From the IMG/VR virus record IMGVR_UViG_3300017730_001426, positions 1 through 24,083 of that record: a stretch of 24,083 nucleotides of DNA. One strand, written 5' to 3'. The notes below the pieces were generated by a model, which saw only the letters and a list, made by a program, of their open reading frames with translations, ran no database searches and had not been told where the DNA came from. Below are positions 7,464-24,083 of the stretch, one piece after another. The DNA comes from a virus. Each line of letters begins with the position of its first letter. Positions within the stretch are counted from its first letter, which is position 1. Made by a program: the position numbers and the translations under genes.

Positions 7464-8219
7464 TTAATCCTCTAATAAATGTTTTAGGTTAGTTATAATA
7501 TTAACACCTCGGTCACGAGCTGTCTGTGTTTTTGCTGACTCGATTCCAGACTCATTAACCAGATGAGTCACATCTTTTGTCAGACTTGATTTTACGACAA
7601 ATCCATATTGACTAAGCACTTGCTCTGCATGAGCTTTAGTTTTATAACTTTTAAGTCTACCACTAATACACACAACTCCTGAAACCTTTGTTTTTTCTAA
7701 TATTTTATTTGTCCATTTGAAAGGTAGTGTGTTGTTGTAGTCGTCTAGGTAGTATTCAGTCTCTAACCAGTTAATTAGATTAGCAGTTGCTTTCGGTCCA
7801 ATGCCCGCTTCTGCACAAGTCTTCTCGCTTATATCTTCAATATGAGATATACTATTGCATAATTTTTGAGAAGCTGATCGCCCGATAAGCGGAATCGAAA
7901 ACGCTGGTAGTAATTTAACCAACGGTAACGATTCAGAATTACGAATCTCTGTCCAGAGTTTCTCTCCTAATCTAACTGAACCTAGTCTTGCCTGTAAATC
8001 CTCTACAGTTAATTCATATAATTCAGCGTAGTCTTGGATGTTCAGCTTACTTACAGCTGCAGGTCCAAGTCCTTTTATCTTTAGTGTGGAAGCGAAGTTA
8101 ACCACTTTCTTGTCCCACTGTGATGCGCAAAGGTCGTTTTTACAGAATAACTGGTCATTAACGAACTCTAAGACACTGTCACACGAAGGGCAGTTAGTCG
8201 GTGGTATAATTTGTTTCAC
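7464..8219 (-). CDS. ligB: NAD-dependent DNA ligase, C-terminal subunit (Zn finger-HhH-BRCT)
   Basis: 251-aa protein equal to the C-terminal half of bacterial LigA. It has a Cys4 zinc finger (C10, C13, C26, C31), helix-hairpin-helix repeats from about 45 to 165 (IKGLGPAAVSKL, EAGIGPKATANL), and a BRCT domain from about 178 to 251 containing SGRLKSYKTKAHAEQ. It lacks the adenylation and OB domains, which are encoded separately at 12895-13833. The two chains presumably assemble into one nick-sealing ligase; phage T5 also encodes its NAD-dependent ligase as A and B subunits. The start is GTG at 8219 with AAAGGAAAC about 6 nt upstream. It is the first gene after promoter P2. Confidence 0.9.
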   Translation of the reverse strand: MKQIIPPTNCPSCDSVLEFVNDQLFCKNDLCASQWDKKVVNFASTLKIKGLGPAAVSKLNIQDYAELYELTVEDLQARLGSVRLGEKLWTEIRNSESLPLVKLLPAFSIPLIGRSASQKLCNSISHIEDISEKTCAEAGIGPKATANLINWLETEYYLDDYNNTLPFKWTNKILEKTKVSGVVCISGRLKSYKTKAHAEQVLSQYGFVVKSSLTKDVTHLVNESGIESAKTQTARDRGVNIITNLKHLLED

Positions 8220-8432: not shown

Positions 8433-9213
8433 ATATATCCTTTATAATTCTCTCTGCCATTAACTTATTGCCTTCCTCTAGTGGATGGTCTTTTGGTCCA
8501 AATGGCACCTTGTGTCTTTTGCACATATCATAGAAACCTTCTTCTTTCATGTGCGGTAATTCTCTATACCAATCTTTTAATTTCATAGTGTTCTGCGACC
8601 ACACTACATTAGCCCCTTCTTGCTGTGGGTCATCTATATGTTTTAGTGCTACTTTTATTTGTCCATCACTTAAGTTATAAAATAAGTATGGTATTCCATG
8701 TGCTTTGAGTAGATACTTTACTGATAACATGTATTGCATACTCCATCTTAAATTATATACTGGGTATCTAACATCTCTACCATAGCCCTCTACTCCTGCG
8801 TGCATTTTTCTATCCATGTCTTGGTGAAAGAACATTCGTGAATCGTGGCTAAGCTTAAATGGATATTTCGATTCGCATCTGTGAGACATCCAAGCAGCTT
8901 GTCTCCAAGTGTTAGTGGTTGGATTTATATATTCAAATCTATTTATTCCAGACCATACTATAATAGCTAACTTTATCTTAACATTTTGTTTTACAGCATA
9001 ACGTTCAGCGTCTAATTGTACCTCTCCTGCTAAGCCTTTCTCTGAGCAGATATCATCTATAACTACTCTTGATATTCTATCATTACTTCCACCTACTTTA
9101 GAGTGCCTTAGCCAAGACTGTCCAAAGTGTGTAGATACTATTGAAGGGAACTGGTCTTGTCTTCTCTTTATTTCCATTCCCTGTACAAAGCTACATCCAT
9201 TCCAATAAATCAA
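8401..9213 (-). CDS. SGNH/GDSL-like hydrolase family protein
   Basis: 270-aa protein with recognisable SGNH blocks in order: GCSFVQG at the N-terminus (block I Ser), GGSNDR near residue 41 (block II Gly/Asn), VWSGINRFEY near 86 (block III G-x-N), and KDHPLEEGNKLMAERI near the C-terminus (D-x-x-H-type block V, here DH-P). Family members deacylate or transfer acyl groups on glycans and lipids. It overlaps the carbamoyltransferase by 4 nt (ATGA), so the two are translationally coupled and may act on the same substrate. The catalytic assignment is moderately supported because the spacing in block V differs from canonical GDSL enzymes. Confidence 0.65.
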   Translation of the reverse strand: MIYWNGCSFVQGMEIKRRQDQFPSIVSTHFGQSWLRHSKVGGSNDRISRVVIDDICSEKGLAGEVQLDAERYAVKQNVKIKLAIIVWSGINRFEYINPTTNTWRQAAWMSHRCESKYPFKLSHDSRMFFHQDMDRKMHAGVEGYGRDVRYPVYNLRWSMQYMLSVKYLLKAHGIPYLFYNLSDGQIKVALKHIDDPQQEGANVVWSQNTMKLKDWYRELPHMKEEGFYDMCKRHKVPFGPKDHPLEEGNKLMAERIIKDIYDKKLDKVFS

Positions 9214-12447: not shown

Positions 12448-12898
12448 ATATCCAATTCTTTCTTCCTGCTGAGTCTGTGTTTGTGCCTACTTCTTTGAAA
12501 CCAAAGTCTAAGAAAGGTTGTTTGCCTCCTTCATAAGTTATTTCTAGCATCATTCTAGGACTTCCATAGTTTTTCATACAGAACTTCTTGCCTTCAGTCA
12601 AATCTCTAGTAGTACATCCGCCTTTGTATTCAGACATCCACGCCTGTCTACGGAACGCAGGATATTCATATATAGTTCCATCATCTCCTTTAAATTTCTT
12701 TTTATAGCATAAAGCATTGACTCCAATCATTTCACCATTCTCATACCACATCATATAATATTGATGCTTGTCGTATTTATCTTCTAAGTCTTGATAGCAT
12801 ACTTTGTTTTCTACAATGAATCCTTGTATTCTTAGTTGTATTACGCGATAGAGTTCATCAACAGTTAACTGCTGATAATGTTTAATTTCACAAATCAT
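12422..12898 (-). CDS. GNAT-family N-acetyltransferase, ElaA-like
   Basis: 158-aa protein with the ElaA-type GNAT pattern: 'LTVDELYRVIQLR', then 'FIVENKVCYQDLEDKYD', then a beta-strand pair around YYMMWYENGEMIGV. The C-terminus (FLDFGFKEVG...WIFVY) fits the usual GF...G final strand. The acetyl-CoA pyrophosphate-binding loop (Q/R-x-x-G-x-G/A) is not clear and may be degenerate. It overlaps ligase subunit A by 4 nt (ATGA) and the radical SAM gene by 26 nt. Acetylation of a small molecule, peptide or modified base is possible; the acceptor is unknown. Confidence 0.65.
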   Translation of the reverse strand: MICEIKHYQQLTVDELYRVIQLRIQGFIVENKVCYQDLEDKYDKHQYYMMWYENGEMIGVNALCYKKKFKGDDGTIYEYPAFRRQAWMSEYKGGCTTRDLTEGKKFCMKNYGSPRMMLEITYEGGKQPFLDFGFKEVGTNTDSAGRKNWIFVYEPDTY

Positions 12899-13833
12899 AC
12901 TCTTTTTACTATTCTCGGGATTATTTCTCCACTTCTAATTACTTCTACATCACAACCTATCTCTAACCCCAATGCATCTATATAAGCTATATTATGCAGA
13001 GTTGCTCTAGAAATAGTTGCTTCTCCAATCACACAGGGCTCTAAGATTGCAACTGGTGAAACAGCACCTGACTTCCCGACATTCCATTCAACGTCCAAGA
13101 GCCGAGTAACTACTCCAGCTTGTCTTGTCTTCAGAGCGAAAGCTCCTCTAGGATGATGTGATGTGTAGCCTAATTTTTCAAAATATATATTAGAGTCGAC
13201 TCGTACAACTTTACCGTCCTGAGGAAATTCATTCCAATCACTTTGTGTGACAGTATTAAATCCCATATCTTTTACCATAGTCATATCCCCAATCCAATCA
13301 GCACAAATTGCTGGTTGAATACCATAAGATATAAATGTAAGACTACGGGATTTAAATTCTTCTAAGTCTTTTAGATTCAAAGCACCACTTGCATAATTTC
13401 TAGCATTTGGTATTGTTTTGGGAGCAACGACTTCTCCAGTAATCTGTTTGATACCTTTACTCCATATTCTATTTGGCACTAAAGACTTAATTTTATCAGT
13501 AATATCTAGACCTTCCCTACCATCTCCACGAGTGAGAGCCTGTGACAATACGCCGTCTACATAAGTTATAGACACAGCTGCACCGTCCATCTTGGCAGTC
13601 ATTACATGTGGTTGATTGGTGTCCCAATTTGGTTCTTCATCTTCGCCTATAAAGACTTTTTGAAGTGAATACATTGGGTAAGGATGTTTGTATCTTGTAC
13701 CTTCTAGAGTATGACCGACTTTATTCTCAAGTTCAGTATTCTCTACAAGTCTATCATATACATCGTCAGGCAACTGTGAGTTCCCTTCAGCATACATTCG
13801 ATTACAATATTCTAGGTATTCTGTCTTATTCAT
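12895..13833 (-). CDS. ligA: NAD-dependent DNA ligase, adenylation/OB subunit
   Basis: 312-aa N-terminal half of a split NAD-dependent ligase. A short Ia-like segment (YDRLVENTELE) is followed by the nucleotidyltransferase core. The adenylated Lys81 is in AKMDG, then TRGDG (101-105), TGEVV with Glu134, RNYASGALN (145-153), and PRGAFALKTR with Lys235. The OB fold follows (VGKSGAVSPVA, ATISRATLHN, SGEIIP). The protein stops exactly where the zinc finger begins in normal LigA; zinc finger, HhH and BRCT are supplied by the gene at 7464-8219. The ATG lies only 6 nt after the P3 -10 box and the next Met (residue 13) has no Shine-Dalgarno site, so translation should be leaderless. Confidence 0.92.
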   Translation of the reverse strand: MNKTEYLEYCNRMYAEGNSQLPDDVYDRLVENTELENKVGHTLEGTRYKHPYPMYSLQKVFIGEDEEPNWDTNQPHVMTAKMDGAAVSITYVDGVLSQALTRGDGREGLDITDKIKSLVPNRIWSKGIKQITGEVVAPKTIPNARNYASGALNLKDLEEFKSRSLTFISYGIQPAICADWIGDMTMVKDMGFNTVTQSDWNEFPQDGKVVRVDSNIYFEKLGYTSHHPRGAFALKTRQAGVVTRLLDVEWNVGKSGAVSPVAILEPCVIGEATISRATLHNIAYIDALGLEIGCDVEVIRSGEIIPRIVKRV

Positions 13834-14566: not shown

Positions 14567-15037
14567 TTAGTCGTTCAGTTCGTTAATTAACTGTGCGAAA
14601 TACTGAGCTGCTTTACCAGTAAGTTTACTGATAATAGCCGCATCTGGCTCTTTTCCAGCGTCTTGGATAGCACCTGTGAGTTCTTCCTGTGCACCTGCAA
14701 CAGAGACTCTAGTACCACCAGTTCCACCTGATTTGCCACCAGCCGCAGGAGTTTTCTTTACATAAACTCCAGCTTTTGTTAAAATCATTCTGACTCCATT
14801 TGGACTCTCGTTTATGTCGTCAGCAATCATCTTTACAATTTCCATACTTGTTTCAGGAGTAGGTTCCTCTGCAGTATACATCTCTACTGCCTGAGCTTTT
14901 AGTTCGTCTGTCCAAGCCATTTTTCTTTTCCTTGTTAAATTATATTTTGTTTTGTATTCGGCAAGAGTATAAGTATTACGGTAGCCAGGAGCCCAACCTG
15001 TGGCTTCTAGCATTTGTGTATAAAACCTGTCGCTCAT
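14567..15037 (-). CDS. SANT/HTH-like DNA-binding protein, possible dual start
   Basis: 156-aa protein. Residues 40-92 contain one SANT/tri-helical repeat (MAWTDELKAQAV ... SPNGVRMILTKAGVYVKK), closely patterned like the first repeat of the 6743-7459 protein. A Gly/Ala/Thr-rich linker (94-112) and a short helical C-terminus follow. The frame starts at ATG 15037 with AAGGAA upstream. An internal ATG at 14920 has its own AAGGAAAAG site about 7 nt before it and begins exactly at the SANT repeat. A 116-aa short form alongside the long form is therefore plausible. Promoter P4 upstream and the terminator at 14517-14555 frame it as a separate, probably strongly expressed unit. Confidence 0.7.
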   Translation of the reverse strand: MSDRFYTQMLEATGWAPGYRNTYTLAEYKTKYNLTRKRKMAWTDELKAQAVEMYTAEEPTPETSMEIVKMIADDINESPNGVRMILTKAGVYVKKTPAAGGKSGGTGGTRVSVAGAQEELTGAIQDAGKEPDAAIISKLTGKAAQYFAQLINELND

Positions 15038-15061
15038 TGCTTATTTCCTTATTATAAATAT

Positions 15062-15090
15062 ATTATACTAAAGATTTAAGCAAGAGTCAA
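15062..15090 (-). promoter_or_regulatory. Promoter P4, sigma-70 type, upstream of SANT-like gene
   Basis: Minus-strand TTGACT (15090-15085), 17-bp spacer, TATAAT (15067-15062) followed by ATAT. It is the only member with a -35 mismatch (T for A at the last base). The leader is about 20 nt and includes AAGGAA before the ATG at 15037. Confidence 0.85.
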
Positions 15091-15100
15091 GAACTAAATT

Positions 15101-15457
15101 TTATAAGCTATATCCGAATGTGAGAATATCTTCCTTATACAGGTCAGCAACACTAGTACGAGTCTTAAGTGTATACCAATTGTTCCACATGGGTGCTATA
15201 AATAGCTTGTCCAAAATGGAAGTATCTTTTACAGGTAATTCTAATTCCTCTAATTCATGTTTCCAATCTTCTAATCGGATTAAGACATCCATATCTTTAT
15301 ACATCTCTTTTTGTGATTGCATTGGGTTAGCTTGAAGCCATTCATCAAAACCAATATAGTTCAAACTGTTCTGATATTCAGTCACAGCTCTTTCATAGGG
15401 GTTTCTAATTACCCCAATCTTAGTTTTATTTGATACCAGATATAAACTCTGACTCAT
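15101..15457 (-). CDS. Short sulfotransferase-like protein lacking the PAPS loop
   Basis: 118-aa protein. IGVIRNPYERAVTEYQNS (about 14-31) matches the 3'-phosphate-binding segment of sulfotransferases, and the C-terminus (TSVADLYKEDILTFGY) matches the family's usual end. The N-terminal 5'-phosphosulfate loop (PKxGGTS) seen intact in the 4145-4750 protein is missing; there is room for only about 13 residues before the Arg motif. It may be a degenerate paralogue, a binding protein or a partner subunit. It overlaps the preceding 57-aa gene by 32 nt. The reading frame is intact, so it is retained as a gene rather than called a pseudogene. Confidence 0.65.
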   Translation of the reverse strand: MSQSLYLVSNKTKIGVIRNPYERAVTEYQNSLNYIGFDEWLQANPMQSQKEMYKDMDVLIRLEDWKHELEELELPVKDTSILDKLFIAPMWNNWYTLKTRTSVADLYKEDILTFGYSL

Positions 15458-15599
15458 AACTTAATTCCCTCGCTAATGCTTTGCAATCTTCAATTGTATG
15501 TTTCTTCCTAGTTGGAGATAGCTCCATGCCATCCAACTCATCCAACTTATCAAGTAAAGCTTTTAATTTAATGGCACAGTCGATTCTGTTGTGTGTCAT
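15426..15599 (-). CDS. Small protein, 57 aa
   Basis: Short ORF encoding a 57-residue, Lys/Leu/Glu-rich, probably helical protein beginning MTHNRIDCAI. AAGGAAC lies about 6 nt before the ATG, and an ATGA overlap couples it to the coiled-coil gene upstream. Its 3' end overlaps the sulfotransferase-like gene by 32 nt. No known domain; function unknown. Confidence 0.7.
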   Translation of the reverse strand: MTHNRIDCAIKLKALLDKLDELDGMELSPTRKKHTIEDCKALARELSYESEFISGIK

Positions 15600-15805
15600 T
15601 TGAAGTTCCTTTTCAAAGATTCTAATTTATCTTCAAGTTCTGCTAACTTACCTATTTCTTGGTCTAAAGTTTCAATGATATCTCCATGCTCTGCTAGTCC
15701 AACATGTGAACCTAATAACACTTCTATATTCATTTTGTGTGCTTCTATGCAACCTTCATATAGTTTTTCTATTGCAGTAACTATTCTTCCTCTATAATTG
15801 CTCAT
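15596..15805 (-). CDS. Small coiled-coil protein, 69 aa
   Basis: 69-aa protein with a heptad-like C-terminal half (IIETLDQEIGKLAELEDKLE) suggesting a short coiled coil. No signal peptide or membrane segment. It is linked by 4-nt overlaps to the membrane-protein gene upstream and the 57-aa gene downstream, so it belongs to the P5 operon. No function can be assigned. Confidence 0.65.
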   Translation of the reverse strand: MSNYRGRIVTAIEKLYEGCIEAHKMNIEVLLGSHVGLAEHGDIIETLDQEIGKLAELEDKLESLKRNFK

Positions 15806-16050
15806 CCTAATAATCCTAATACAAAGTTCCTAATGAACCTTTCTCTGTGCCTACCGACATCTAAGGCGGCAAACATTAATAACGGAGTCAAAGGTAATGC
15901 CATTACTGACACTGACACTATGACTAATTCTTTATGCCTAAGGACAGGATTGGTCTTGTCTGTTAATACAGCTATTCTAAATGCTGGGAATACCAACTTC
16001 CAAATAACTATCGCCCAGCCAGATAACCAAAAGGCTATTAATATATCCAT
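15802..16050 (-). CDS. Small two-helix membrane protein, 82 aa
   Basis: 82-aa protein with two hydrophobic segments, about residues 4-24 (IAFWLSGWAIVIWKLVFPAF) and 43-64 (VIVSVSVMALPLTPLLMFAA), separated by a charged loop, with a basic C-terminus (RHRERF). The topology resembles small phage membrane proteins, including class II holins. A separate holin candidate lies closer to the endolysin genes, and this one is in an early-type operon. It could be a host-membrane takeover or superinfection-exclusion factor; no family recognised. Confidence 0.65.
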   Translation of the reverse strand: MDILIAFWLSGWAIVIWKLVFPAFRIAVLTDKTNPVLRHKELVIVSVSVMALPLTPLLMFAALDVGRHRERFIRNFVLGLLG

Positions 16051-16082
16051 GCTGTTTCCTTATGCTCATTTTATTGAGTGCT

Positions 16083-16733
16083 TTACAAATATTGTTGTAA
16101 ATGTTTTAAACTTCCCATTTCGTACGATGCTAAACAGTATTGTTTACCAGCCCACGGTAGATGTGGAAAGTATGTATCTTTTAAGTCATCTTGTGTACAT
16201 TCTACGGTACACACTAAGTAGACTCTAAAACCTCTTTCTTTTGCAAGTTCAGGTTTTAATTCTCTATCCACTATTGCAGGATAGTTTTGTCTGATTGCCC
16301 AAACTTTTTCTTTAGGCTCAAACTCCTCTGCTACACACTGATCTGGTAGTATAGCATTTCTTCTTCCTTCATAGTCAGTCATGGAGAGTTTCTGAGGCAC
16401 TCCGAGTCTTTCTACAATTCCTTTAATAAACGCAGGACTTCTATATAGTGATTTCGCTATATCAGACATGTTAAATCCATCAAGATACATCTGTACTGTA
16501 GATTTTATTTCCTGTTTATTAGCACCTTTTCCTTTGTTCTGAGACTTTCGTCTCGCTCTAAAGTCCATGGTTTCTTTGTGTTCTGTTATTATTTTGTTAA
16601 GCCTAGTGGTATTATACGCTATGTTTAGTATACCACACGCTTCTTTTTTAGTTATAGGCTTCTCGCCCTCTAGCAAACTAATTACTTTACTTATATTCGC
16701 TTCCGATAAGTTCTCGTGCTTCTTTATTCTCAT
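16083..16733 (-). CDS. Helix-turn-helix phage protein, 216 aa
   Basis: 216-aa basic protein. Two helix-turn-helix-like segments are visible: 'ITKKEACGILNIAYNTTRLNKII' (about 27-49) and 'EIKSTVQMYLDGFNMSDIAKSLYRSPAFIKGIVERLG' (about 76-112), the second resembling resolvase or sigma-factor type HTH units. The C-terminal part (from about 135, KVWAIRQNYPAIVDREL ... VYLVCTVE) looks like a compact beta-rich domain of unknown function. AGGGG lies upstream of ATG 16733, and the gene overlaps the DUF3310 gene by 47 nt. Probably a DNA-binding regulator or replication accessory factor. Confidence 0.6.
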   Translation of the reverse strand: MRIKKHENLSEANISKVISLLEGEKPITKKEACGILNIAYNTTRLNKIITEHKETMDFRARRKSQNKGKGANKQEIKSTVQMYLDGFNMSDIAKSLYRSPAFIKGIVERLGVPQKLSMTDYEGRRNAILPDQCVAEEFEPKEKVWAIRQNYPAIVDRELKPELAKERGFRVYLVCTVECTQDDLKDTYFPHLPWAGKQYCLASYEMGSLKHLQQYL

Positions 16734-16995
16734 TTTCTACCCCTAGTAAAATTATTGCATAATGCAGAATCTTTAATAAGTCCTGCTCGTTTCTTCCATC
16801 TTTCTTTCCGTACCTCTGCGCATACTTTATAATGTTGCCTAAGCAGAAGCCTTCTCCATGACCAGCATCGAAGATGAACTCGGTTGACTGGATTTTATTC
16901 ATACTGTAATGACTATCATAAGTCTTTATAATATGATTTTGTAGCATGTTCATTGCTACATCTTCGTTAAACTTGTTGTTATTATAGTCTGTCAT
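16687..16995 (-). CDS. DUF3310-family protein
   Basis: 102-aa protein. Its C-terminal half (FCLGNIIKYAQRYGKKDG ... DLLKILHYAII) matches the DUF3310 signature G-N-x-x-K-Y-x-x-R-x-x-x-K-x(n)-D-L-x-K-x-x-x-Y. This family is frequent in phages and often labelled nucleotide-kinase-like, but its biochemical role is not established. The stop of the upstream oxygenase gene and this ATG are directly adjacent. Confidence 0.75.
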   Translation of the reverse strand: MTDYNNNKFNEDVAMNMLQNHIIKTYDSHYSMNKIQSTEFIFDAGHGEGFCLGNIIKYAQRYGKKDGRNEQDLLKILHYAIILLGVENENKEARELIGSEYK

Positions 16996-17628
16996 TTACT
17001 TCTCTGTTGCGAAAAATCCTACTTGGACTAATCGTGCGTTTTCTTTGTTTGTTCCGAAAGATGCATTTAGTGGTGCATGCCAATAGTTTGCTGGATATAA
17101 TACACATCTATTGTATACATTTCCAACGTAAGTGTGCAACTCCCAATCTTCGTGGTTGCTTTTCCACTCTCCTTTAAAGCCAGCGTTTTTATCTATTTTT
17201 AACTTTTCTGACTTTGTAATTAAACCTGTTTTCTTACTTCTAAAAAGTGCTGTGCCTGTGTCAATTTTGGCTTTGGGTTGTAAATAAATTACGGCAGCCC
17301 AAGCTTGTCCATCAACACTTTCTGTTGTTCGCTCTAAAAATCCCGAACAATCATGATGAATCCAATTAAGAAACTCATTGTTCTTCTTAAGTCCAAGAGT
17401 AAATGCTCCATTGGAGTTTTTATTTGGAAAGTAAGTTATCTTTTTTCCAATAGTTGTTTCAAATCTATTCTTGATGAAATTTCTATTCTCATTTGAGAAA
17501 GTAGCTATAGTTCTATCTCCAGGAAATGCCATCTTTCTACCTCTACGACCTGGGTAGAAGTACATTCTTAATGCGTTTTCTCTTACCTCGTCTGGGTTTG
17601 GATAGAAATTATCAACTATGTGAATCAT
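16996..17628 (-). CDS. DUF6445-like Fe(II)/2OG oxygenase-type protein
   Basis: 210-aa protein starting MIHIVDNFYPNPDEVRENAL, typical of DUF6445-type phage proteins. It has FPGDRT at 35-40, an HxD metal motif (H91-H92-D93 in WIHHD), VIYLQP and TGTALFR strands, a distal His184 in YPANYWHAP and Arg199 before VQVGFF. The layout fits a 2OG-Fe(II) dioxygenase fold, although the substrate is unknown and the metal site is inferred from motif order only. It overlaps the coiled-coil gene by 17 nt and abuts DUF3310. Confidence 0.7.
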   Translation of the reverse strand: MIHIVDNFYPNPDEVRENALRMYFYPGRRGRKMAFPGDRTIATFSNENRNFIKNRFETTIGKKITYFPNKNSNGAFTLGLKKNNEFLNWIHHDCSGFLERTTESVDGQAWAAVIYLQPKAKIDTGTALFRSKKTGLITKSEKLKIDKNAGFKGEWKSNHEDWELHTYVGNVYNRCVLYPANYWHAPLNASFGTNKENARLVQVGFFATEK

Positions 17629-17851
17629 GCTTAGTGAGTTCGTCTATTACTTCCAGTCCGCCCTCTAACTTAGCTAGATATTCTTGTTTCTTTGCAAGTT
17701 GAGCTTTTAGATTGACAATATCATTTTCGACACCTGCCATCTGTGCTTCTAAGTTTTGTTTTAATACTTGACTATGTTCCATTGTTTCCACTGTTGGTTC
17801 CTTTACTCCTATTAGTTGGTCTAAAAAGTTTGTTTTAGTGCTTTTTGCCAT
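17612..17851 (-). CDS. Small coiled-coil protein, 79 aa
   Basis: 79-aa protein with a continuous predicted coiled coil from about residue 26 to 70 (QVLKQNLEAQMAGVENDIVN... with Leu/Ala/Lys heptads). No membrane segment, cysteine or catalytic motif. It overlaps the flanking genes by 17 nt on each side. Structural or adaptor role possible; unknown. Confidence 0.65.
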   Translation of the reverse strand: MAKSTKTNFLDQLIGVKEPTVETMEHSQVLKQNLEAQMAGVENDIVNLKAQLAKKQEYLAKLEGGLEVIDELTKHDSHS

Positions 17852-18023
17852 TTAATCTTACTCCATTTAGCATTTGGTATTCATCCCCATTGCTCTTTCT
17901 GACCACTATTGGTCGTTTTAGTACTTGAAACTGCGAATACTCTAATAATTTCTTATTGATTTCTTCGTCTGATGTTCCTTCTTTAAACATAAGGGCTCCT
18001 TTGCCCAGTTTAACTTTTATCAT
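17835..18023 (-). CDS. Small protein, 62 aa
   Basis: 62-aa protein beginning MIKVKLGKGALMFKEGTSDE, mixed alpha/beta in pattern, ending in a basic NGVRLNGKKH tail. It is coupled to the upstream 18020-18619 gene by a 4-nt ATGA overlap and to the coiled-coil gene by 17 nt. No domain recognised. The short beta-rich N-terminus could be a dimerisation strand, but no function is assigned. Confidence 0.65.
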   Translation of the reverse strand: MIKVKLGKGALMFKEGTSDEEINKKLLEYSQFQVLKRPIVVRKSNGDEYQMLNGVRLNGKKH

Positions 18024-18619
18024 ACTCTGGTTATCCTCTTATCATAGTCAGCGTAATCTTCATTCCACCAACTAGGCTTATCTCTGTATTTCCACTCGGC
18101 AAAGGTTGCTTTGTCTAAGTGATAATAATCTCGATACGATTGTATAACATCATCTTCGTTTTTCAACTCATCAGGCATAGCCATGAGGAAAGGAGTTTGT
18201 CCTAGCCTAGGCATATTCTTTGGTTCAGGTAGTTTGTTTACTACTTCTACGATAGATTTATGCTGTTTTCCATAACGATAGTGGTACTCATCGTTGAGCG
18301 CGTTAGCGTAACAATGAGCCCACTCAAAGTTATCCAATGATGACCTAACCCAAATCGTGCAGGGATGATTATACATCATCGGCAGATAAGGGGTAAGAGG
18401 TCGCTCTTCCATAGGAAGATGCTTTATCTTGGCTTTCTTACTGTTTAGTACTTCTCGTTCGTCCTTGTCAAGCGCACGAGGTACAAATCCCAGTACTTCG
18501 TCAACCCATATAGCGGTACACAAAAGTTGCGCTGCCTCGAGAGGCATTTTCACAATGTGTTTGTCAACGTGGTACTCGGCACATTTGTCTAAGTCTTGGT
18601 CTAGATAAAATAAATTCAT
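18020..18619 (-). CDS. Conserved phage protein of unknown function, 199 aa
   Basis: 199-aa protein beginning MNLFYLDQDLDKCAEYHVDK, with KMPLEAAQLL, HPCTIWVRSS and DEYHYRYGKQH segments and a C-terminal PDELKNEDDVIQSYRDYYH region. This His/Tyr/Trp-rich pattern recurs in a widespread group of phage and bacterial proteins. I recognise the pattern but no established activity. The many conserved His, Cys and Glu residues (C13, H17, H21, E28) could bind a metal. It directly abuts the 38-aa gene (TAG immediately followed by ATG) as second gene of the P5 operon. Confidence 0.7.
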   Translation of the reverse strand: MNLFYLDQDLDKCAEYHVDKHIVKMPLEAAQLLCTAIWVDEVLGFVPRALDKDEREVLNSKKAKIKHLPMEERPLTPYLPMMYNHPCTIWVRSSLDNFEWAHCYANALNDEYHYRYGKQHKSIVEVVNKLPEPKNMPRLGQTPFLMAMPDELKNEDDVIQSYRDYYHLDKATFAEWKYRDKPSWWNEDYADYDKRITRV

Positions 18620-18736
18620 CTATTTCCAACACTTGTAGACACCACATAAGCCATCTGCATTTTCTGTAGTTCCACAGTATTTGCATGGCTTATCTGATTT
18701 AGTCGGTTTATGTTTTGTTTCTGTAATCTTAATCAT
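18620..18736 (-). CDS. Cys-rich 38-aa protein, zinc-ribbon-like; first gene of P5 operon
   Basis: Short ORF encoding 38 residues. The basic N-terminus is followed by PCKYCG (C18, C21) and then C31 and C36, a spacing compatible with a single zinc knuckle. The ATG lies 6 nt after the P5 -10 box, and an ATG 4 nt further upstream hits a stop within four codons. The start is therefore fixed and the transcript is predicted leaderless. The next gene begins at the base after its stop. It may be a small regulatory or host-takeover protein. Confidence 0.7.
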   Translation of the reverse strand: MIKITETKHKPTKSDKPCKYCGTTENADGLCGVYKCWK

Positions 18737-18742
18737 ACATAT

Positions 18743-18771
18743 ATTATACAGAAAGTTTCAACACTTGTCAA
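18743..18771 (-). promoter_or_regulatory. Promoter P5, consensus sigma-70 type, leaderless start of 38-aa gene
   Basis: Minus-strand TTGACA (18771-18766), 17-bp spacer ending TTCTG, TATAAT (18748-18743), then ATATGT and the ATG, identical to P3 over this segment. The -35 box begins only a few bases after the stop of the holin candidate. It should drive the operon from 18736 down to about 15101. Confidence 0.9.
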
Positions 18772-18774
18772 GAT

Positions 18775-19152
18775 TTATTTTGAGTTTATCTTATCTTTAG
18801 CTGTTCCAGCGTATAGTCCAAACCATGCTGCACCTGCCCCTACAACGATACTAATCAAACCTGACTGCTCCATTGAAGGTTCTGGTAAATCCATAAACCA
18901 TATTGTACACTTATAAAGTAATACAATGTATACTGTTAGAAATAAACGAGGAAAGATTCTCCAAGCGTCTATCATAGAAGATAGCCAAATCCAGCGTTGC
19001 CACGGATTTTCTGGTTCTTTATCGTTTTCTAACTTTAATATTTCAGCTTTCAGATTACTGTTTTCGGTGACGAGTTCCATAAACTTATTAAGGTCTATTT
19101 CTACCTCATTCCTAGACATATCGCCTGAGAACTGATTACTTGCTTCTGCCAT
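18775..19152 (-). CDS. Holin candidate, 125 aa
   Basis: 125-aa protein with a soluble, helical N-terminal half (LNKFMELVTENSNLKAEILK) and two hydrophobic segments near the C-terminus: FPRLFLTVYIVLLYKCTIWF (about 67-86) and LISIVVGAGAAWFGLYAG (about 99-116), ending in a charged tail. The second helix, with Gly/Ala-rich small-residue faces, resembles marine phage holins. The frame extends to 19224, but ATG 19152 has AGGAG about 6 nt upstream and avoids a long overlap with the JmjC-like gene. The endolysin at 23598 has no secretion signal, so a holin is needed. Another small membrane protein at 15802-16050 is the alternative. Confidence 0.6.
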   Translation of the reverse strand: MAEASNQFSGDMSRNEVEIDLNKFMELVTENSNLKAEILKLENDKEPENPWQRWIWLSSMIDAWRIFPRLFLTVYIVLLYKCTIWFMDLPEPSMEQSGLISIVVGAGAAWFGLYAGTAKDKINSK

Positions 19153-19894
19153 AAATTTCTCCTGGCTCCCAATTGTACCACTTCCTTCTCGCTCCTGTCT
19201 CCGAATGTGACTTCTTGCCCTCATAAGGTTCTCTGAAGTGAAAACTAATTGATATTCTTGGGCTTAGCGTATCTACTTTATGATACTGCTTAGCAGGTAT
19301 ATATAATAAATCGCCGTCATCTAACTCTATAACTTCCAATAATTCAGGAGCATGTTTATTAGGACGGAGTCTTTCATTCTCCTTATCTTTCGGAGCAAAA
19401 TCTTTATAAATATACCATCTTATCTTTCCACTTACATGGAAAAGAAAATTGTCTGTAGAATCTGCATGAATAGGAAAACACTTAGCATCTTTTTGATTAG
19501 AGCAGTATATATTAGCCTGCCCAATACCATAGTGTTTTTCAAACTCTCTAGTCTGATTCCACATTGTTTTGTTTAAAAATTCAGAAAGTGTAATAATAAA
19601 ACTACTTCCATCTCTCCAAAGTTTTAGTAATTCTTCTCTAGTTTTCTTTTCTGGTGATTTTTTCTTACACCATTTGTTACCATTAGGTAATACTACTTGT
19701 AGTTGGGGAGTTCTATCCCATGATTGTATATTGTACTGATTTAGATAGTTATCTAATTCTTCCCAACTAAAATGATTTGCAAAAATGTTTTCTTTAGACT
19801 TAATCACAAAATGTTTCTTATCTTTATATTCTTCTAAAAAGCGTTTAAGTCCAATCGGCTGTAGTAATTTATCTAAACTAAGACTACTATCCAT
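19136..19894 (-). CDS. JmjC/cupin-like Fe(II)/2OG oxygenase
   Basis: 252-aa protein with a JmjC/ROX-type cupin. H143 and D145 are in FPIHADSTDN, a FLFHVSGKIRWYIY strand pair follows (typical of 'G.K.W.L/Y.P'), and ELDDGDLLYIPAKQYHKV carries the second metal His205, with Arg213 and SISFHF after it. Bacterial relatives hydroxylate ribosomal proteins or other substrates. The metal set is complete, so activity is plausible; the target is unknown. It overlaps the glycosyltransferase by 8 nt and the holin candidate by 17 nt. Confidence 0.78.
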   Translation of the reverse strand: MDSSLSLDKLLQPIGLKRFLEEYKDKKHFVIKSKENIFANHFSWEELDNYLNQYNIQSWDRTPQLQVVLPNGNKWCKKKSPEKKTREELLKLWRDGSSFIITLSEFLNKTMWNQTREFEKHYGIGQANIYCSNQKDAKCFPIHADSTDNFLFHVSGKIRWYIYKDFAPKDKENERLRPNKHAPELLEVIELDDGDLLYIPAKQYHKVDTLSPRISISFHFREPYEGKKSHSETGARRKWYNWEPGEIYGRSK

Positions 19895-20684
19895 TTTTTC
19901 TCATCTGTCTTACTATATTAGCATAGTCCCACCATACTTCCATTAAATCTTGTCTCCAATGAGTAGCTTTAGCAAAACAATTATACCTAGGATGCCATGG
20001 TTGATAGCTAAGTCCTGTTAAATGTAGTTGCCACATAAAATCTAATGACATTTGAGGTTTCTGCCAAAAGTCTCTCATATGCTGGTCTGGTACTACTATT
20101 GAGGGGTCTACTCCATCAAAACAGTTCCATCTTGAATCTAATGGTTCAATGTATTCTTTTGACTCTTGTTTAAATGGCATATTTAATTTTTCACCAAATT
20201 CCCACTTATAACTTTTACTAGTTTTTGCACTCCATTCTTCCATATCTTTTATACTATCCATATATGGTTTTGCTTTCTCGCAGTCGAATAACATTACACT
20301 ATCACACCACCAACCTCTTGGTACACCTAAGTCTGCTCCTTTCTTTCCATTATCTTGCTGAGCATCCCATACAAATCCAAAAGGTTTGCCATTCAACTTA
20401 GTATTAAATAAATGAGAAATATCTCTAAAGTTTATCATATCTACATCTGTATATAAAGCTCTACCTTTAAAATTACATAGCTCTGGAACTGCATATCTAA
20501 AGCAAGTAAAAGGTGTCCCCCAATATCTTCTATCCCAGTTTGGAAACATTGATGGTCGTAAGAATGTTATCTCTATCTCTTGATTGCTCGGCAAATTTTT
20601 ATAAATAGAATAAAGATATACTTGTTCAGCTAGCCAATCTTCTTTCTCACTTGTGCCTATAAATAATCTAATCGTATTTGACAT
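19887..20684 (-). CDS. Glycosyltransferase, GT8-like
   Basis: 265-aa protein with GT-A/GT8 features: an N-terminal beta strand (IRLFIGTSEKEDW), then WGTPFTCFRYAVPEL, then ALYTDVDMI with the D80-x-D82 metal motif, a DISHLF helix, and WWCDSVMLFDC and WNCFDG segments further on. It would transfer a sugar from a nucleotide-sugar donor to a glycan, protein or base. The open frame extends to 20756, but the preceding 24 residues are a hydrophobic stretch overlapping the upstream gene, and ATG 20684 (MSNTIRLF) fits the family start. The acceptor is unknown. Confidence 0.75.
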   Translation of the reverse strand: MSNTIRLFIGTSEKEDWLAEQVYLYSIYKNLPSNQEIEITFLRPSMFPNWDRRYWGTPFTCFRYAVPELCNFKGRALYTDVDMINFRDISHLFNTKLNGKPFGFVWDAQQDNGKKGADLGVPRGWWCDSVMLFDCEKAKPYMDSIKDMEEWSAKTSKSYKWEFGEKLNMPFKQESKEYIEPLDSRWNCFDGVDPSIVVPDQHMRDFWQKPQMSLDFMWQLHLTGLSYQPWHPRYNCFAKATHWRQDLMEVWWDYANIVRQMRKNG

Positions 20685-21177
20685 ATAATATCTTTGCTCC
20701 GTTTGATGCGTGAATAGAATGAAAAAACTTATTACCAATAATAGCACCTGTATCACAATGCAAAGGAGTATTGACTACATAATGTTTTTTCCAATTAAAT
20801 TGTTCGTAGTTTGGTATATCTAGAGTCTGGTCTAGATTATTTCTATCTTTTCCAATTACTACTGAAGCATGTTTTTTATTTAAAGAAAATATTACTACTG
20901 TACTTCTAATTGGTACTTGTATTGATTTTTCATTTGCTTCCATAGCAACAACCTTTGTAGGTTTTCTACTATCAATTGGATGTTTAAGTAAATCTAAAAA
21001 ATGTTTTGAATGGTTATACCACTTAGGATAAGTGAATGAATAGTCGTCTAAGTTGAAATGTTTTCTATACAATGGTACTGCATGCCAGAAAGGGAACATT
21101 GTGTCTCTCATATCAAGAGGAAAATCTAGTATATCAAGAGCAATTTCTTTAACTTCATTATTAAGCTGTCTAATCAT
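20668..21177 (-). CDS. Unknown protein, cupin-like C-terminal half, 169 aa
   Basis: 169-aa protein. The C-terminal half is beta-rich (VPIRSTVVIFSLN, HASVVIG, HCDTGAIIGNKFFHSIHASN) and resembles a double-stranded beta-helix such as those of phage hydroxylases. It lacks a convincing HxD metal pair, so a catalytically dead or divergent cupin is the best guess. The next gene upstream ends at the base before its start, and it overlaps the glycosyltransferase by 17 nt. It may be an accessory protein for the neighbouring oxygenases or glycosyltransferase. Confidence 0.55.
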   Translation of the reverse strand: MIRQLNNEVKEIALDILDFPLDMRDTMFPFWHAVPLYRKHFNLDDYSFTYPKWYNHSKHFLDLLKHPIDSRKPTKVVAMEANEKSIQVPIRSTVVIFSLNKKHASVVIGKDRNNLDQTLDIPNYEQFNWKKHYVVNTPLHCDTGAIIGNKFFHSIHASNGAKILYVKYD

Positions 21178-21837
21178 TTAATATGGTGCTCCTGCACCTC
21201 TAAAGAATCCTACTATAATATCTCGTTTACCTGATATTAGTGGTCTAGATTCGTGTTCATGTATTGATGTAAATATTGTAAGAGAGCCTTTCTCTCTAAT
21301 TGTAGGAAAAGAGTGTCTAAATGTTTCTCTTTGTTTTAAGAACTCAGGTGGGAAATTACTATCTATAAAGACATCAGGAGTAGTATAACTCTCTACTATC
21401 TCTAAATCACCGCCCTCATACTCATGACTATGGCTCAGTTGAATACTAAGACTTATCTTTCTAGTAGTCATTCCTGTATGGATTTCTTTCAACCCAGGTC
21501 TATAATCTCTATGAGCTCTAAAGTGCATCCCAGGTTCATCATATCGAACCATGTTTATTTCGTGCATCTTTCTTTCGTCGTAGAGATGAAACTTATATGT
21601 GTTATTGTTATATAAGTCTACTGCTTTCTTTAATTTATCATAGAATGGAAACTCTATCCGACTTCTCTTTTTACACTTGCGTATTTTGGAGTTATAACCA
21701 CTCCATCGTGTTGCCGCTAAAGGCCACTTCCTATCCTTGTTTATCTCATAAAGCTGAGTTATTTCTTCATCAGATAAAAAATTAGGAATATGTCCTACTA
21801 TGTCATGTTCTTTATGTACACTAACTTCTAGTTTCAC
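21178..21837 (-). CDS. 2OG-Fe(II) oxygenase, prolyl-4-hydroxylase/PKHX-like
   Basis: 219-aa protein with complete motifs: H109 and D111 in FRAHRDYR, the strand LSIQLSHSHEYEGGDLEI typical of the family, and SIHEHESRPLISGKRDIIVGFF where H195 is the distal metal ligand and R205 binds 2-oxoglutarate. This arrangement is the usual one in P4H/PiuC-like phage hydroxylases. It couples to the upstream 81-aa gene by 4 nt. Substrate unknown; a cell-surface glycan, peptide or virion protein is possible. Confidence 0.85.
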   Translation of the reverse strand: MKLEVSVHKEHDIVGHIPNFLSDEEITQLYEINKDRKWPLAATRWSGYNSKIRKCKKRSRIEFPFYDKLKKAVDLYNNNTYKFHLYDERKMHEINMVRYDEPGMHFRAHRDYRPGLKEIHTGMTTRKISLSIQLSHSHEYEGGDLEIVESYTTPDVFIDSNFPPEFLKQRETFRHSFPTIREKGSLTIFTSIHEHESRPLISGKRDIIVGFFRGAGAPY

Positions 21838-22079
21838 TTATTTTCTAATTGTTCAATTCTTTTTATTAAAGTATCATATCCATCAAATTCTTCGATACCG
21901 CACTTGGGATGAGCCCACTGCTCTAAAACTCCCACTCTATCTTCAAGGTGCTCACACCAATCTTCTTGTTCCTCAAATCTATTCTGTATAGTTGGATTAC
22001 TTTCTAATATATCATTGCCTTGTTGCATGATACGAAAGATTCTCCACTTCTGCAGAAGTTTTCTAAACACTATTAACAT
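21834..22079 (-). CDS. Small protein, 81 aa
   Basis: 81-aa charged protein with a basic N-terminus (MLIVFRKLLQKWRIFRIM) and an acidic, coiled-coil-like rest (RFEEQEDWCEHLEDRVGVLE, TLIKRIEQLE). The frame is open to 22103; ATG 22079 is chosen because it shortens the overlap with the upstream gene and has an AGAAG-like site before it, but ATG 22103 cannot be excluded. No function recognised. Confidence 0.55.
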   Translation of the reverse strand: MLIVFRKLLQKWRIFRIMQQGNDILESNPTIQNRFEEQEDWCEHLEDRVGVLEQWAHPKCGIEEFDGYDTLIKRIEQLENK

Positions 22080-22677
22080 AGTCACATGCTTCTTGCCATG
22101 CAACTTTATTTGTACTTGGTATCGCTAACTCTAGAACACACCTCGGTTTTTTGTTATAATTTCTATCTGCCATCCAATCATCTATTCCGTCTTGTTCTCC
22201 TATGAGTAGTGTCCAGTCAGCATTATATACTGAGTGTTGGTCTGGTATCTTTTTATATCTGCCTTTTGAAACATATCTAGTTTCTCCACGACCTGAATTA
22301 TGAATAAATCTAAGGAACATTTTACCTTTTCCTTTGCTGTTATTCCATCCAGTCCAACCCCAATAAGGTACTTGAGCCATGTATGTGTCCCAATACCATT
22401 GTTGAGTACCAGTCTTACTGCAAATAATATTTCTAAATATATTTCTTAATCTGCCGAAGTCTACTCCACCATCAGGTGATTCTCTACCTACATAATCAAT
22501 ATTATTTGTTAACTCGTGCTTACCATCATTTGCAGCCATAGCTGTGCGTAGTCTTGCTAAAGTTATGTTAGGTTTAGGTGCTTGATTATAACTTGCAGGC
22601 TGTTTGTAGACAGTCCTTGCCATTAAATCCAATCGAGTAATTACTTCTCTGTTTCTAATTTTTAGTGCTTGTATCAT
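22063..22677 (-). CDS. Phage protein of unknown function, 204 aa
   Basis: 204-aa protein with an aromatic-rich middle (WYWDTYMAQVPYWGWTGWNN) and a later WTLLIGEQDGIDDW segment followed by RCVLELAIP. The pattern suggests an alpha/beta enzyme or binding domain, but no family is identified. Met1 (22677) overlaps the o-spanin by 23 nt; Met19 (MARTVYKQ) is an alternative start with GGAT upstream. It sits between spanins and the surface-modification genes. Confidence 0.6.
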   Translation of the reverse strand: MIQALKIRNREVITRLDLMARTVYKQPASYNQAPKPNITLARLRTAMAANDGKHELTNNIDYVGRESPDGGVDFGRLRNIFRNIICSKTGTQQWYWDTYMAQVPYWGWTGWNNSKGKGKMFLRFIHNSGRGETRYVSKGRYKKIPDQHSVYNADWTLLIGEQDGIDDWMADRNYNKKPRCVLELAIPSTNKVAWQEACDYVNSV

Positions 22678-23047
22678 TGTTTAGTGCTTCTGGGTCTGTC
22701 ACTTTTTCATAGTAAACTACGACCTCTTTGAGTTCAGTTATATAACGCTTTAATTCTTGCATATTATATGACATCAACTCATAATCTGGTATGGACATAG
22801 CTACAAATACTACTTGTCCATGTTCTTCTGTTAATCTTTCGTGAAACTCGTCAATGTTTTTATCACTAACTACATACCATAAAGGTAGCTTTAAATCTAT
22901 TTCTCTTGGTAGAACAGGTTGTGTTATTATCCTGTCCATGGGCTTTGCTGTTACTTCTATTTGTTTAGTTGGGATTAGACTGCAACTCGACGCCATCATC
23001 AAGGCTATCAATGGTGCGACTAATTTCTTCGATTGACTCAAATACAT
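22655..23047 (-). CDS. o-spanin, outer-membrane lipoprotein (Rz1-like)
   Basis: 130-aa protein with an N-terminal hydrophobic signal (LVAPLIALMMASSC) and a lipobox-like A-S-S-C, so Cys22 would be lipidated and the mature chain anchored in the outer membrane. The remainder is soluble, ending in helices. The gene starts inside the i-spanin frame, overlapping it by 83 nt in another frame, with AAAGGAAC before the ATG. This matches the overlapped Rz/Rz1 architecture. With the i-spanin it would span the periplasm and fuse the inner and outer membranes at lysis. It is longer than most Rz1 proteins. Confidence 0.75.
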   Translation of the reverse strand: MYLSQSKKLVAPLIALMMASSCSLIPTKQIEVTAKPMDRIITQPVLPREIDLKLPLWYVVSDKNIDEFHERLTEEHGQVVFVAMSIPDYELMSYNMQELKRYITELKEVVVYYEKVTDPEALNNDTSTKN

Positions 23048-23360
23048 GTTTAGTTCCTTTGTTTATCTTTGGTTCTAGCAACCCAGGCTTTGCTGATGCT
23101 AGTTTTGTTAAATTGTGTCTCTTAAAGATGTCTAGGTATCTATTCATCTCTAACTGAGCTTCTTGGGACTTCTTTTGAAGTTCGCCTAGTTGTTGTGTTT
23201 GCAATGCAAAATCGTTCTGCATTGTCTTTATTGCTTCTTCCTGAGTAGCAACTGCTCCTTCAAGTGCCATATTATTTGCTGTTAGCACTTGGTTTTGTTG
23301 GTACAGGTAATAACTACCTAGACCCAACACTAATATAATTCCTATATAAAGTTGGTTCAT
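22965..23360 (-). CDS. i-spanin, inner-membrane (Rz-like)
   Basis: 131-aa protein with one N-terminal transmembrane helix (YIGIILVLGLGSYYLY, about 5-20) followed by a long periplasmic helical coiled coil (about 25-85, Gln/Glu/Lys/Leu heptads). This is the standard Rz topology, N-in/C-out. AAGGAG lies about 5 nt before the ATG, and the stop of the preceding gene overlaps the ATG by one base (TAATG). The o-spanin gene begins within its 3' part. It would act after the endolysin has degraded peptidoglycan. Confidence 0.78.
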   Translation of the reverse strand: MNQLYIGIILVLGLGSYYLYQQNQVLTANNMALEGAVATQEEAIKTMQNDFALQTQQLGELQKKSQEAQLEMNRYLDIFKRHNLTKLASAKPGLLEPKINKGTKHVFESIEEISRTIDSLDDGVELQSNPN

Positions 23361-23605
23361 TATAACTCCTTAATTTTATAATTGAGCCCTTCAGCTCCTC
23401 GTATCTCTACTATATCGCCGTCTTCGGTTTTGAACTGAAGATACTTATCTTGCTTCTTATAAAACTTTGCGACTATAAATGTTTCATCATCTGCGTCACC
23501 ATATACTGAATTATAACTTACTGTAAGTTCGTAGTAAGATAGAAATAGATTCTTAAACCAGAACCACCAATCATTTAACTTCTCTAAAAACTCTTGCTTA
23601 GACAT
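23360..23605 (-). CDS. Small conserved-type phage protein, 81 aa
   Basis: 81-aa protein with an aromatic N-terminal helix (LNDWWFWFKNLFLSYYEL) and a beta-rich, acidic remainder (DADDETFIVAKFYKK, VEIRGAEGLNYKI). The N-terminus could associate with a membrane but is too polar for a clear transmembrane segment. It overlaps the endolysin end by 8 nt and lies within the lysis cluster. Function unknown; a chaperone or regulator of lysis is only a guess from position. Confidence 0.65.
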   Translation of the reverse strand: MSKQEFLEKLNDWWFWFKNLFLSYYELTVSYNSVYGDADDETFIVAKFYKKQDKYLQFKTEDGDIVEIRGAEGLNYKIKEL

Positions 23606-24041
23606 GTTCCCAGATTGCTCCCTGATATAATAACGCTTCTGCTTCTCTTCTTCGCACTAAACCATCTAAAACTTTTCCACCTGCTTTGTTCCACCTTTTG
23701 ATTTGAGCAGGTACTCCAGCATGGTCGCCAGAGTTGATGACTTTCAACATTGTTGAAGCTTTGAGATTTCCATTACCGAGATTGAACACCCAAGACACAA
23801 TTGCATCGAATTGATTCTGAGAAAGTGGAACCGTTACCGCTGTGTTCACGTAAGTTTCGTACTCCTTCATCTCATGGTTAAACATTTCATCTGCTTCTTC
23901 TTGTGTTATTGTATCGCCCATACTTACGCCTTTTATATGTCCGTAGCCGATTGTTGGAACTCCTGCAGCACATTTATATGCTGTAAGTTCGCATCCTTCA
24001 AATTTTTTAATTAAGCTCTTGCCTTCTTCTGATATTGTCAT
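23598..24041 (-). CDS. Endolysin, GH24 (T4-type) lysozyme
   Basis: 147-aa muramidase that cleaves the glycan strands of peptidoglycan. The catalytic triad pattern is E-8-C-5-T: Glu in KFEG, then Cys eight residues on in YKCAAG, then Thr in VPTIGYGH. The middle residue is Cys, a known alternative to the Asp of T4 lysozyme. Family segments NQFDAIVSWVFNLG and RRREAEALL follow. There is no signal peptide, SAR helix or transmembrane segment, so release needs a holin. ATG 24041 has AAGGAAAAC about 6 nt upstream; the in-frame extension to 24083 runs through the terminator hairpin and is rejected. Confidence 0.92.
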   Translation of the reverse strand: MTISEEGKSLIKKFEGCELTAYKCAAGVPTIGYGHIKGVSMGDTITQEEADEMFNHEMKEYETYVNTAVTVPLSQNQFDAIVSWVFNLGNGNLKASTMLKVINSGDHAGVPAQIKRWNKAGGKVLDGLVRRREAEALLYQGAIWEHV

Positions 24042-24061
24042 AGTTTTCCTTTTTAAAAATC

Positions 24062-24081
24062 GGGGGAGAATACACTCCCCC
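24062..24081 (-). terminator. Intrinsic terminator upstream of endolysin
   Basis: A perfect 7-bp GC-rich stem (GGGGGAG/CTCCCCC) with a 6-nt loop, followed on the minus strand by GATTTTT. It should end transcription coming from genes to the right of the window, about 20 nt before the endolysin start. Readthrough or a promoter not visible within the window would then be needed for the lysis genes. Confidence 0.85.
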
Positions 24082-24083
24082 AT

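Follow-up and report, generated by a model that had tools for sequence, protein, structure and literature searches.

The pairing of protein hydroxylation with glycosylation is best known in eukaryotes and giant viruses, and mimivirus L230 and LH3 (PLOD3) each unite a hydroxylase and a glycosyltransferase in one chain. In LH3 a 2-oxoglutarate (2OG) hydroxylase works with a sugar transferase (PMC6082870). Candidate parts for such a pairing, here as separate genes, are found in the DNA analysed in this study, a 24,083-base fragment of a virus in IMG/VR (record IMGVR_UViG_3300017730_001426; its whole length is 'the window' below), where a run of genes on the minus strand (24041-18775) leads from an endolysin and two spanin genes through a cassette with a family 8 glycosyltransferase (GT8) and oxygenase-like genes to a holin candidate, a protein with two transmembrane segments (2-TM protein). 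The phage group is marine and known mainly from sequence. The new point is that the stretch between the outer spanin (o-spanin) gene and the 2-TM gene is an exchangeable slot, together with the placement of the lysis unit among replication genes. No title or abstract opening found in the literature describes such a hydroxylase/GT8 cassette within lysis genes, and a DNA-level search of phage records gave no match.

Relatives were collected in scans with the window's own 2-TM protein, GT8 and o-spanin as queries, the best 80 matches per scan being kept, which yielded 222 loci beyond that of the window. Counts of layouts and of steps on layout trees exclude L001, which is the locus of the window itself, and five loci that duplicate others on their contig (L162-L165, L174), and hairpin and promoter counts were taken on distinct regions where so stated. 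Among loci with the o-spanin gene before the 2-TM gene, 57 have the cassette between the two (a gap of 2,892-4,245 bases) and 55 have a compact block of small genes (197-1,111 bases), usually u89-like, u44, u75 and TM55, a protein with one transmembrane segment; the 2-TM gene comes first in 9 loci. TM55 is found inside the locus in 52/55 compact and 0/57 cassette loci. Many contigs are near-identical: at 95% identity the 57 cassette loci amount to 32 distinct GT8 proteins and 25 distinct o-spanins, and the 52 TM55 loci to 14 distinct o-spanins. A sequence-only reading of the window had spoken of an interrupted lysis cluster and had proposed a comparison with relatives in which it is uninterrupted. 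Such relatives do exist, as the 55 compact loci; the enzymes indeed separate the lysis genes, but the arrangement is better named an exchangeable slot than an interruption.

All 57 cassette loci that span o-spanin to 2-TM gene share the core order u204-cup169-GT8-JmjC (in the window 22063..22677, 20668..21177, 19887..20684 and 19136..19894, all minus strand). A PKHD/prolyl-hydroxylase-type 2OG-Fe(II) oxygenase (P4H; window 21178..21837, minus strand) stands before cup169 in 41 of them and after GT8 in 11, and there are usually one to three P4H/PKHD-type oxygenases per cassette. The window also encodes a small protein, u89 (21834..22103, minus strand, with an alternative in-frame ATG at 22079), relatives of which also occur in the compact layout. 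The gene immediately before GT8 is cup169 in 79/79 cassette loci with a gene called there (none was called in 5 further loci), and u204 directly follows the o-spanin gene in 56/56 added loci (from the best 80 of 110 matches, some sharing contigs with earlier loci). This order is kept despite divergence, with identities of 41-72% among GT8 cassette members (alignment A4) and down to 25% for u204 (alignment A1). No other cassette family was called in 15 bacterial loci with GT8 relatives (one had a DUF3310 match), nor next to the distant GT8 relatives of 18 viral loci (L141-L158). A search of 10 contigs with compact or other layouts for JmjC and GT8 found neither; these contigs are fragments, and an empty outcome shows little.

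The layout changes at least six times on a quick tree of the o-spanin, at least eight times on that of the 2-TM protein (109 rows each) and at least twice on that of the lysozyme (86 rows), as counted on trees whose supports were not inspected and with no shuffle control. Such changes on trees of the flanking genes suggest exchange by recombination at the flanks. Other genes have also been found in the slot. In nine compact loci (L067, 1126-1356; L021, L022, L033, L041, L042, L043, L047, L069) an acyl carrier protein gene (PF00550, 1.7e-10 for L067) lies between the o-spanin and 2-TM genes, and in one cassette lineage a cytochrome c gene (PF00034, 6.1e-7, tested in L304, 8566-9015) lies between two oxygenases; L304 shares a contig with L212, and a like open reading frame (ORF) exists in L214/L305. 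It could be argued that the cassette genes, too, are unrelated passengers of a slot that tolerates cargo, sharing a position and nothing else. Both the additional cargo and the repeated changes of layout on the three quick trees fit this explanation, but it does not account for a core order that persists in spite of wide divergence of the proteins, nor for u204 never having been seen away from the o-spanin in the 56 added loci, and it is considered unlikely.

The enzymes themselves have well-conserved active-site residues. GT8 matches PF01501 (7.3e-12; 45.8 bits against a cut-off of 24.3) and carries the DxD motif of family 8, with D80, D82 and H221 invariant in 31/31 sequences; its start is most likely ATG 20684 rather than the listed GTG 20756. 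Among 50,697 phage records there was one weak partial match to it (34.9%, over 40% of its length). P4H (PF13640, 1.7e-9; 38.9 bits against a cut-off of 27) retains the iron triad and the basic 2OG-binding residue (H109, D111, H195 and R205, invariant in 22/22) and is nearest to PKHD hydroxylases, specifically 3dkq (PiuC, 6.3e-12). The JmjC protein is a JmjC_2 oxygenase (PF08007, 7.2e-16) with the HxD...H pattern of the JmjC domain (H143, D145 and H205, invariant in 26/26), and its catalytic domain is most like those of MINA (6.3e-10) and NO66. MINA and NO66 also possess dimerisation and winged-helix parts. The phage protein differs in having only 252 residues, of which just the JmjC region aligns (matches reach residues 19-252 of chains of 442-489 residues), with no C-terminal dimerisation or winged-helix Pfam domain in it. 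JmjC relatives also occur in 22 of the 50,697 phage records, each of them named as a cyanophage or Synechococcus phage, but at only 24.5-29.5% identity. The likeness of JmjC to MINA/NO66 and of P4H to PKHD hydroxylases speaks for a role of both as hydroxylases. Ratios of nonsynonymous to synonymous substitution rates (dN/dS) of 0.04-0.25 for P4H, GT8 and JmjC in four pairs indicate purifying selection.

The two remaining core proteins are more unusual. According to their AlphaFold2 models, u204 and cup169 have the double-stranded beta-helix fold of 2OG oxygenases (prolyl-hydroxylase-like in u204) without conserved iron ligands. The u204 model (predicted local distance difference test score, pLDDT, 88.7) aligns to PHD2 over 152 residues (VIA Z 10.9, 3.8 Å), with low Foldseek TM-scores of about 0.3-0.46, and no H, D or E is invariant in 30 sequences. 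A match of u204 to a tail-tube protein (Goslar, E 0.0075) was set aside because the model fold matched prolyl hydroxylases. The cup169 model (pLDDT 94.7) matches ALKBH7 in Foldseek (6.3e-5, TM 0.53) and 6n1f by VIA (Z 10.9); only P51 is invariant in 39 sequences, with no H, D or E among them. An active cupin or oxygenase was therefore rejected for this 'cupin-like' protein on its residues. Profile comparisons of u204, cup169 and P4H found nothing. The likeness to LH3 and L230 lies in the match of the cup169 model to their hydroxylase domains (Z 9.4, 2.8 Å, 129-132 residues aligned), but the Z is higher for other 2OG oxygenases (6n1f, 10.9), and the part that matches here is the one without iron ligands. 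The dN/dS of cup169 is 0.94 against L085 (few changes; the o-spanin there has 0.51) and 0.55 against L086, and it is 0.08 against L089 and 0.28 against L098, synonymous sites being near saturation in both of the latter; this suggests that cup169 evolves faster.

Around the cassette lie recognizable lysis genes, all on the minus strand: the endolysin, a phage lysozyme (23598..24041; PF00959 7.5e-51, phrog_7 1.4e-64); orf81 (23360..23605; no Pfam match, one PHROG at 0.18), which is beside the lysozyme in both layouts; the Rz-like inner spanin (i-spanin, 22965..23360; phrog_739 2.4e-15); and the o-spanin, an Rz1-like lipoprotein with a lipobox-like ASSC (22655..23047; phrog_812 6.9e-10), whose gene begins inside that of the i-spanin, as in two-component spanins. 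The profile matches and the recurrence in relatives confirm the gene content and order reported in the sequence-only reading (endolysin, spanins, enzymes, then holin candidate), and since the same order recurs in dozens of contigs it is not due to chance. Its statement that all genes overlap holds for nearly all neighbours (1 to 23 bases; 41 for u204/u89 if u89 begins at TTG). P4H and cup169 only abut (stop at 21178, start at 21177), and the o-spanin gene is nested.

A single transcription unit is also supported by the promoters. A sigma-70-like promoter with at most one mismatch lies 300-1000 bases before the lysozyme ORF in 43/43 cassette loci (36/36 distinct upstream regions, 0/36 shuffles), and only 3/52 cassette loci reach this score inside the unit. 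A perfect TTGACA-N17-TATAAT promoter-like site follows the 2-TM gene in the window (18743..18771, minus strand) and is at the same position in relatives; overall a promoter stands right after the 2-TM gene in 48/66 distinct regions (0/66 shuffles), 30 of the 31 TM55-type regions included. Since the promoter pattern fits one unit from before the Hsp20 gene to the 2-TM gene, the cassette and lysis genes would be transcribed together, judging by gene order and promoters. The Hsp20 gene is known from L002 (918-1298; PF00011, 4.3e-13), two genes before the endolysin, and in a compact phage an IscA/HesB-like ORF precedes the endolysin (L011, 627-938; PF01521 5.5e-4, below the curated cut-off). Just before the window's endolysin there is a G-rich hairpin with a T run (24061..24082, minus strand), similar to a terminator or attenuator, one of 10 terminator-like sites in 15000-24083 against 4.4 expected. 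A hairpin at this place (z<-2, mononucleotide shuffles) is found in 23/27 distinct cassette upstream regions and 1/20 TM55-type ones, with a terminator-like rule satisfied in 14/28 and 1/22, respectively; cassette relatives use other stem letters. The hairpin may attenuate or process the transcript.

When this unit is expressed is a different matter. In the large cassette contigs G001 (88 kb) and G003 (105 kb) the lysis unit is opposite in strand to the terminase. Specifically, in G003 the terminase (PF03237, 5e-20), portal, head and tape-measure genes are on one strand, and the strand of the lysis unit also carries DnaB (PF03796) and the family A DNA polymerase PolA (PF00476). The lysis unit lies in the replication arm and may share the timing of the replication genes. 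The sequence-only reading had proposed late co-expression, with the enzymes acting on virions or the cell surface near release. The shared unit with endolysin and spanins, with its translational overlaps, would agree with this, and the hairpin upstream of the endolysin might postpone read-through. Promoter type cannot tell the time, because perfect sites occur on the structural strand too, and a late start is possible in that respect: sites with at most one mismatch number 30 in each of G001 and G003 (shuffle means 4.5 and 5.9), and the perfect ones, all with a 17-base spacer, are on the lysis strand in 13/16 (G001) and 12/16 (G003) cases and on the structural strand in 3/16 and 4/16. Late co-expression is nevertheless not supported, because the unit sits in the replication arm, together with DnaB and PolA and opposite the strand of the terminase, portal, head and tape-measure genes; late expression deduced from position was judged to lack support once this was found. 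Compact relatives, furthermore, carry the lysis genes without the cassette. Late action of the enzymes as a part of release seems quite improbable. A part of PMC9004378 offers a precedent from a marine phage, the lysin gp67 of Melnitz, for which an early promoter is proposed; in that part no such enzyme cassette is mentioned. A place in a lysis cluster need not mean a late, lysis-related function.

On these data, decoration of a protein is a likelier role for the cassette than a part in the lysis step itself. The reading we tentatively prefer, while giving it somewhat less than an even chance, is that of an accessory cassette for hydroxylation plus glycosylation of a protein, placed in the exchangeable slot and riding in the lysis operon without being a lysis component itself. 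It consists of the four-gene core described above and, in most cases, one to three oxygenases of the PKHD/P4H type. The oxygenases would hydroxylate side chains of a protein, probably of the virion or the host envelope, and GT8 would then add a sugar to the hydroxyl group, in the manner of LH3 or mimivirus L230; u204 and cup169, as iron-less oxygenase folds, might serve to bind the target or to keep the complex together, and cup169, as the protein with the lowest conservation, would keep up with a target that changes. If this is true, marine phages carry a dedicated, swappable cassette for protein hydroxylation and glycosylation, and the cassette is a defined gene set for asking about virion or envelope modification.

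Several points weigh against this proposal. P4H is not called in 5/57 cassettes, so that JmjC is the only constant oxygenase. No collagen-like Gly-X-Y repeat was flagged in a crude search of ORFs of at least 60 residues in G001 and G003, a further difference from LH3 and L230. A promoter right after the 2-TM gene is present in just 18/35 distinct cassette regions, several other cassette loci having an extra gene there, and genes may share an operon without working in one pathway. The structures nearest to GT8 are, weakly, LgtC-type enzymes (2e-4 to 1.3e-3; 3tzt 2e-4, LgtC 6.4e-4), and the acceptor of LgtC is a glycolipid. In L298, L300 and L301 the GT8 and JmjC genes have between them an NAD-dependent epimerase-family gene (PF01370, 2.5e-32 for L301), which is cut in L303; it speaks for the hydroxylation-plus-glycosylation reading, but its copies are near-identical and therefore count as one lineage only. 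The nearness of GT8 to 3tzt and LgtC and the added epimerase, as well as the position in the replication arm, would suit a role of GT8 in modifying the lipopolysaccharide or another envelope glycan of the host, masking a receptor against superinfecting phages, with the oxygenases acting separately or on the same glycan. Such a role, which leaves unexplained the strict linkage of GT8 to a relative of protein hydroxylases (JmjC) and to two iron-less oxygenase-fold proteins, is possible but rather doubtful.

The holin may be any of three membrane proteins. The 2-TM protein (18775..19152, minus strand; phrog_10198 'unknown function', 1.6e-19), which most likely starts at ATG 19152 rather than at the listed 19224, is a small membrane protein in a lysis cluster with two modest hydrophobic segments (1.64 and 1.58, Kyte-Doolittle). 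A homologous stretch adjoins the lysozyme in HMO-2011 and is near it in L078-L080; homologues in VH7D, D386 and C48C1 are among other genes and annotated as hypothetical. The second candidate, TM41, a peptide of 41-44 residues with one transmembrane segment, lies at most 520 bases before the lysozyme ORF in 35/44 cassette and 25/29 TM55-type loci that reach there, adjoining the endolysin in the cassette loci looked at and separated from it by an IscA-like ORF in compact ones; none was found in L051 and L216, of another cassette branch. In L002, whose cluster proteins all match those of the window at 98-100%, TM41 follows the Hsp20 gene, and the window's phage therefore very probably encodes it. 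A holin beside the endolysin but outside the window, which the sequence-only reading had named as evidence against its own proposal, is thus partly borne out, as a candidate in many relatives.

The third candidate is TM55, and the idea that cassette phages have lost it was rejected. It is about 2 kb from the terminase and on its strand in G001 (7143-7319) and G003 (41629-41805), likewise near the terminase in G004 (9040-9213), and on the strand opposite the lysis unit in G016 (36216-36368). Among five large cassette contigs tested for a terminase (G001-G005), TM55 is beside it in 3/3 with a terminase match, although G003 and G004 are not independent because their TM55 is identical. TM55 was not found in G002, G005, G017, G018, G019 and G020, of which G002 and G005 likewise gave no match to a terminase. 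Azospirillum phage Cd encodes a TM55-like protein three genes after its lysozyme, and a marine Ayaqvirus has one amid its head and tail genes. Since TM41 precedes the endolysin in many relatives and TM55 sits by the terminase, the holin is not necessarily the 2-TM protein. The broadest proposal, to which we assign a low probability, joins these observations to protein modification: JmjC and PKHD enzymes would make hydroxyl acceptors that GT8 glycosylates, the two degenerate oxygenases would bind the target with cup169 in an arms race, and lysis enzymes and trigger would come from different arms, perhaps at different times. If so, the lysis genes would be split between two genome arms.

Some further genes were noted along the way. 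On the structural strand of G003, positions 47964-49257 (L241 7964-9257, minus strand) encode the curli secretion proteins CsgG (PF03783, 3.7e-49) and CsgF (PF10614, 3.2e-19); curli secretion genes are discussed for phage Melnitz in a part of PMC9004378. Beyond the lysis unit, the window has three more modification-type genes, of the Asp/Arg-hydroxylase family (PF05118, 3567-4166), the sulfotransferases (PF03567, 4145-4750) and DUF6445 (16996-17628). Its NAD-dependent DNA ligase is split over two genes (12895-13833 and 7464-8219; phrog_3359 1.4e-100, phrog_3498 6.5e-57), with the adenylation and OB domains in one and the C-terminal part with BRCT in the other.

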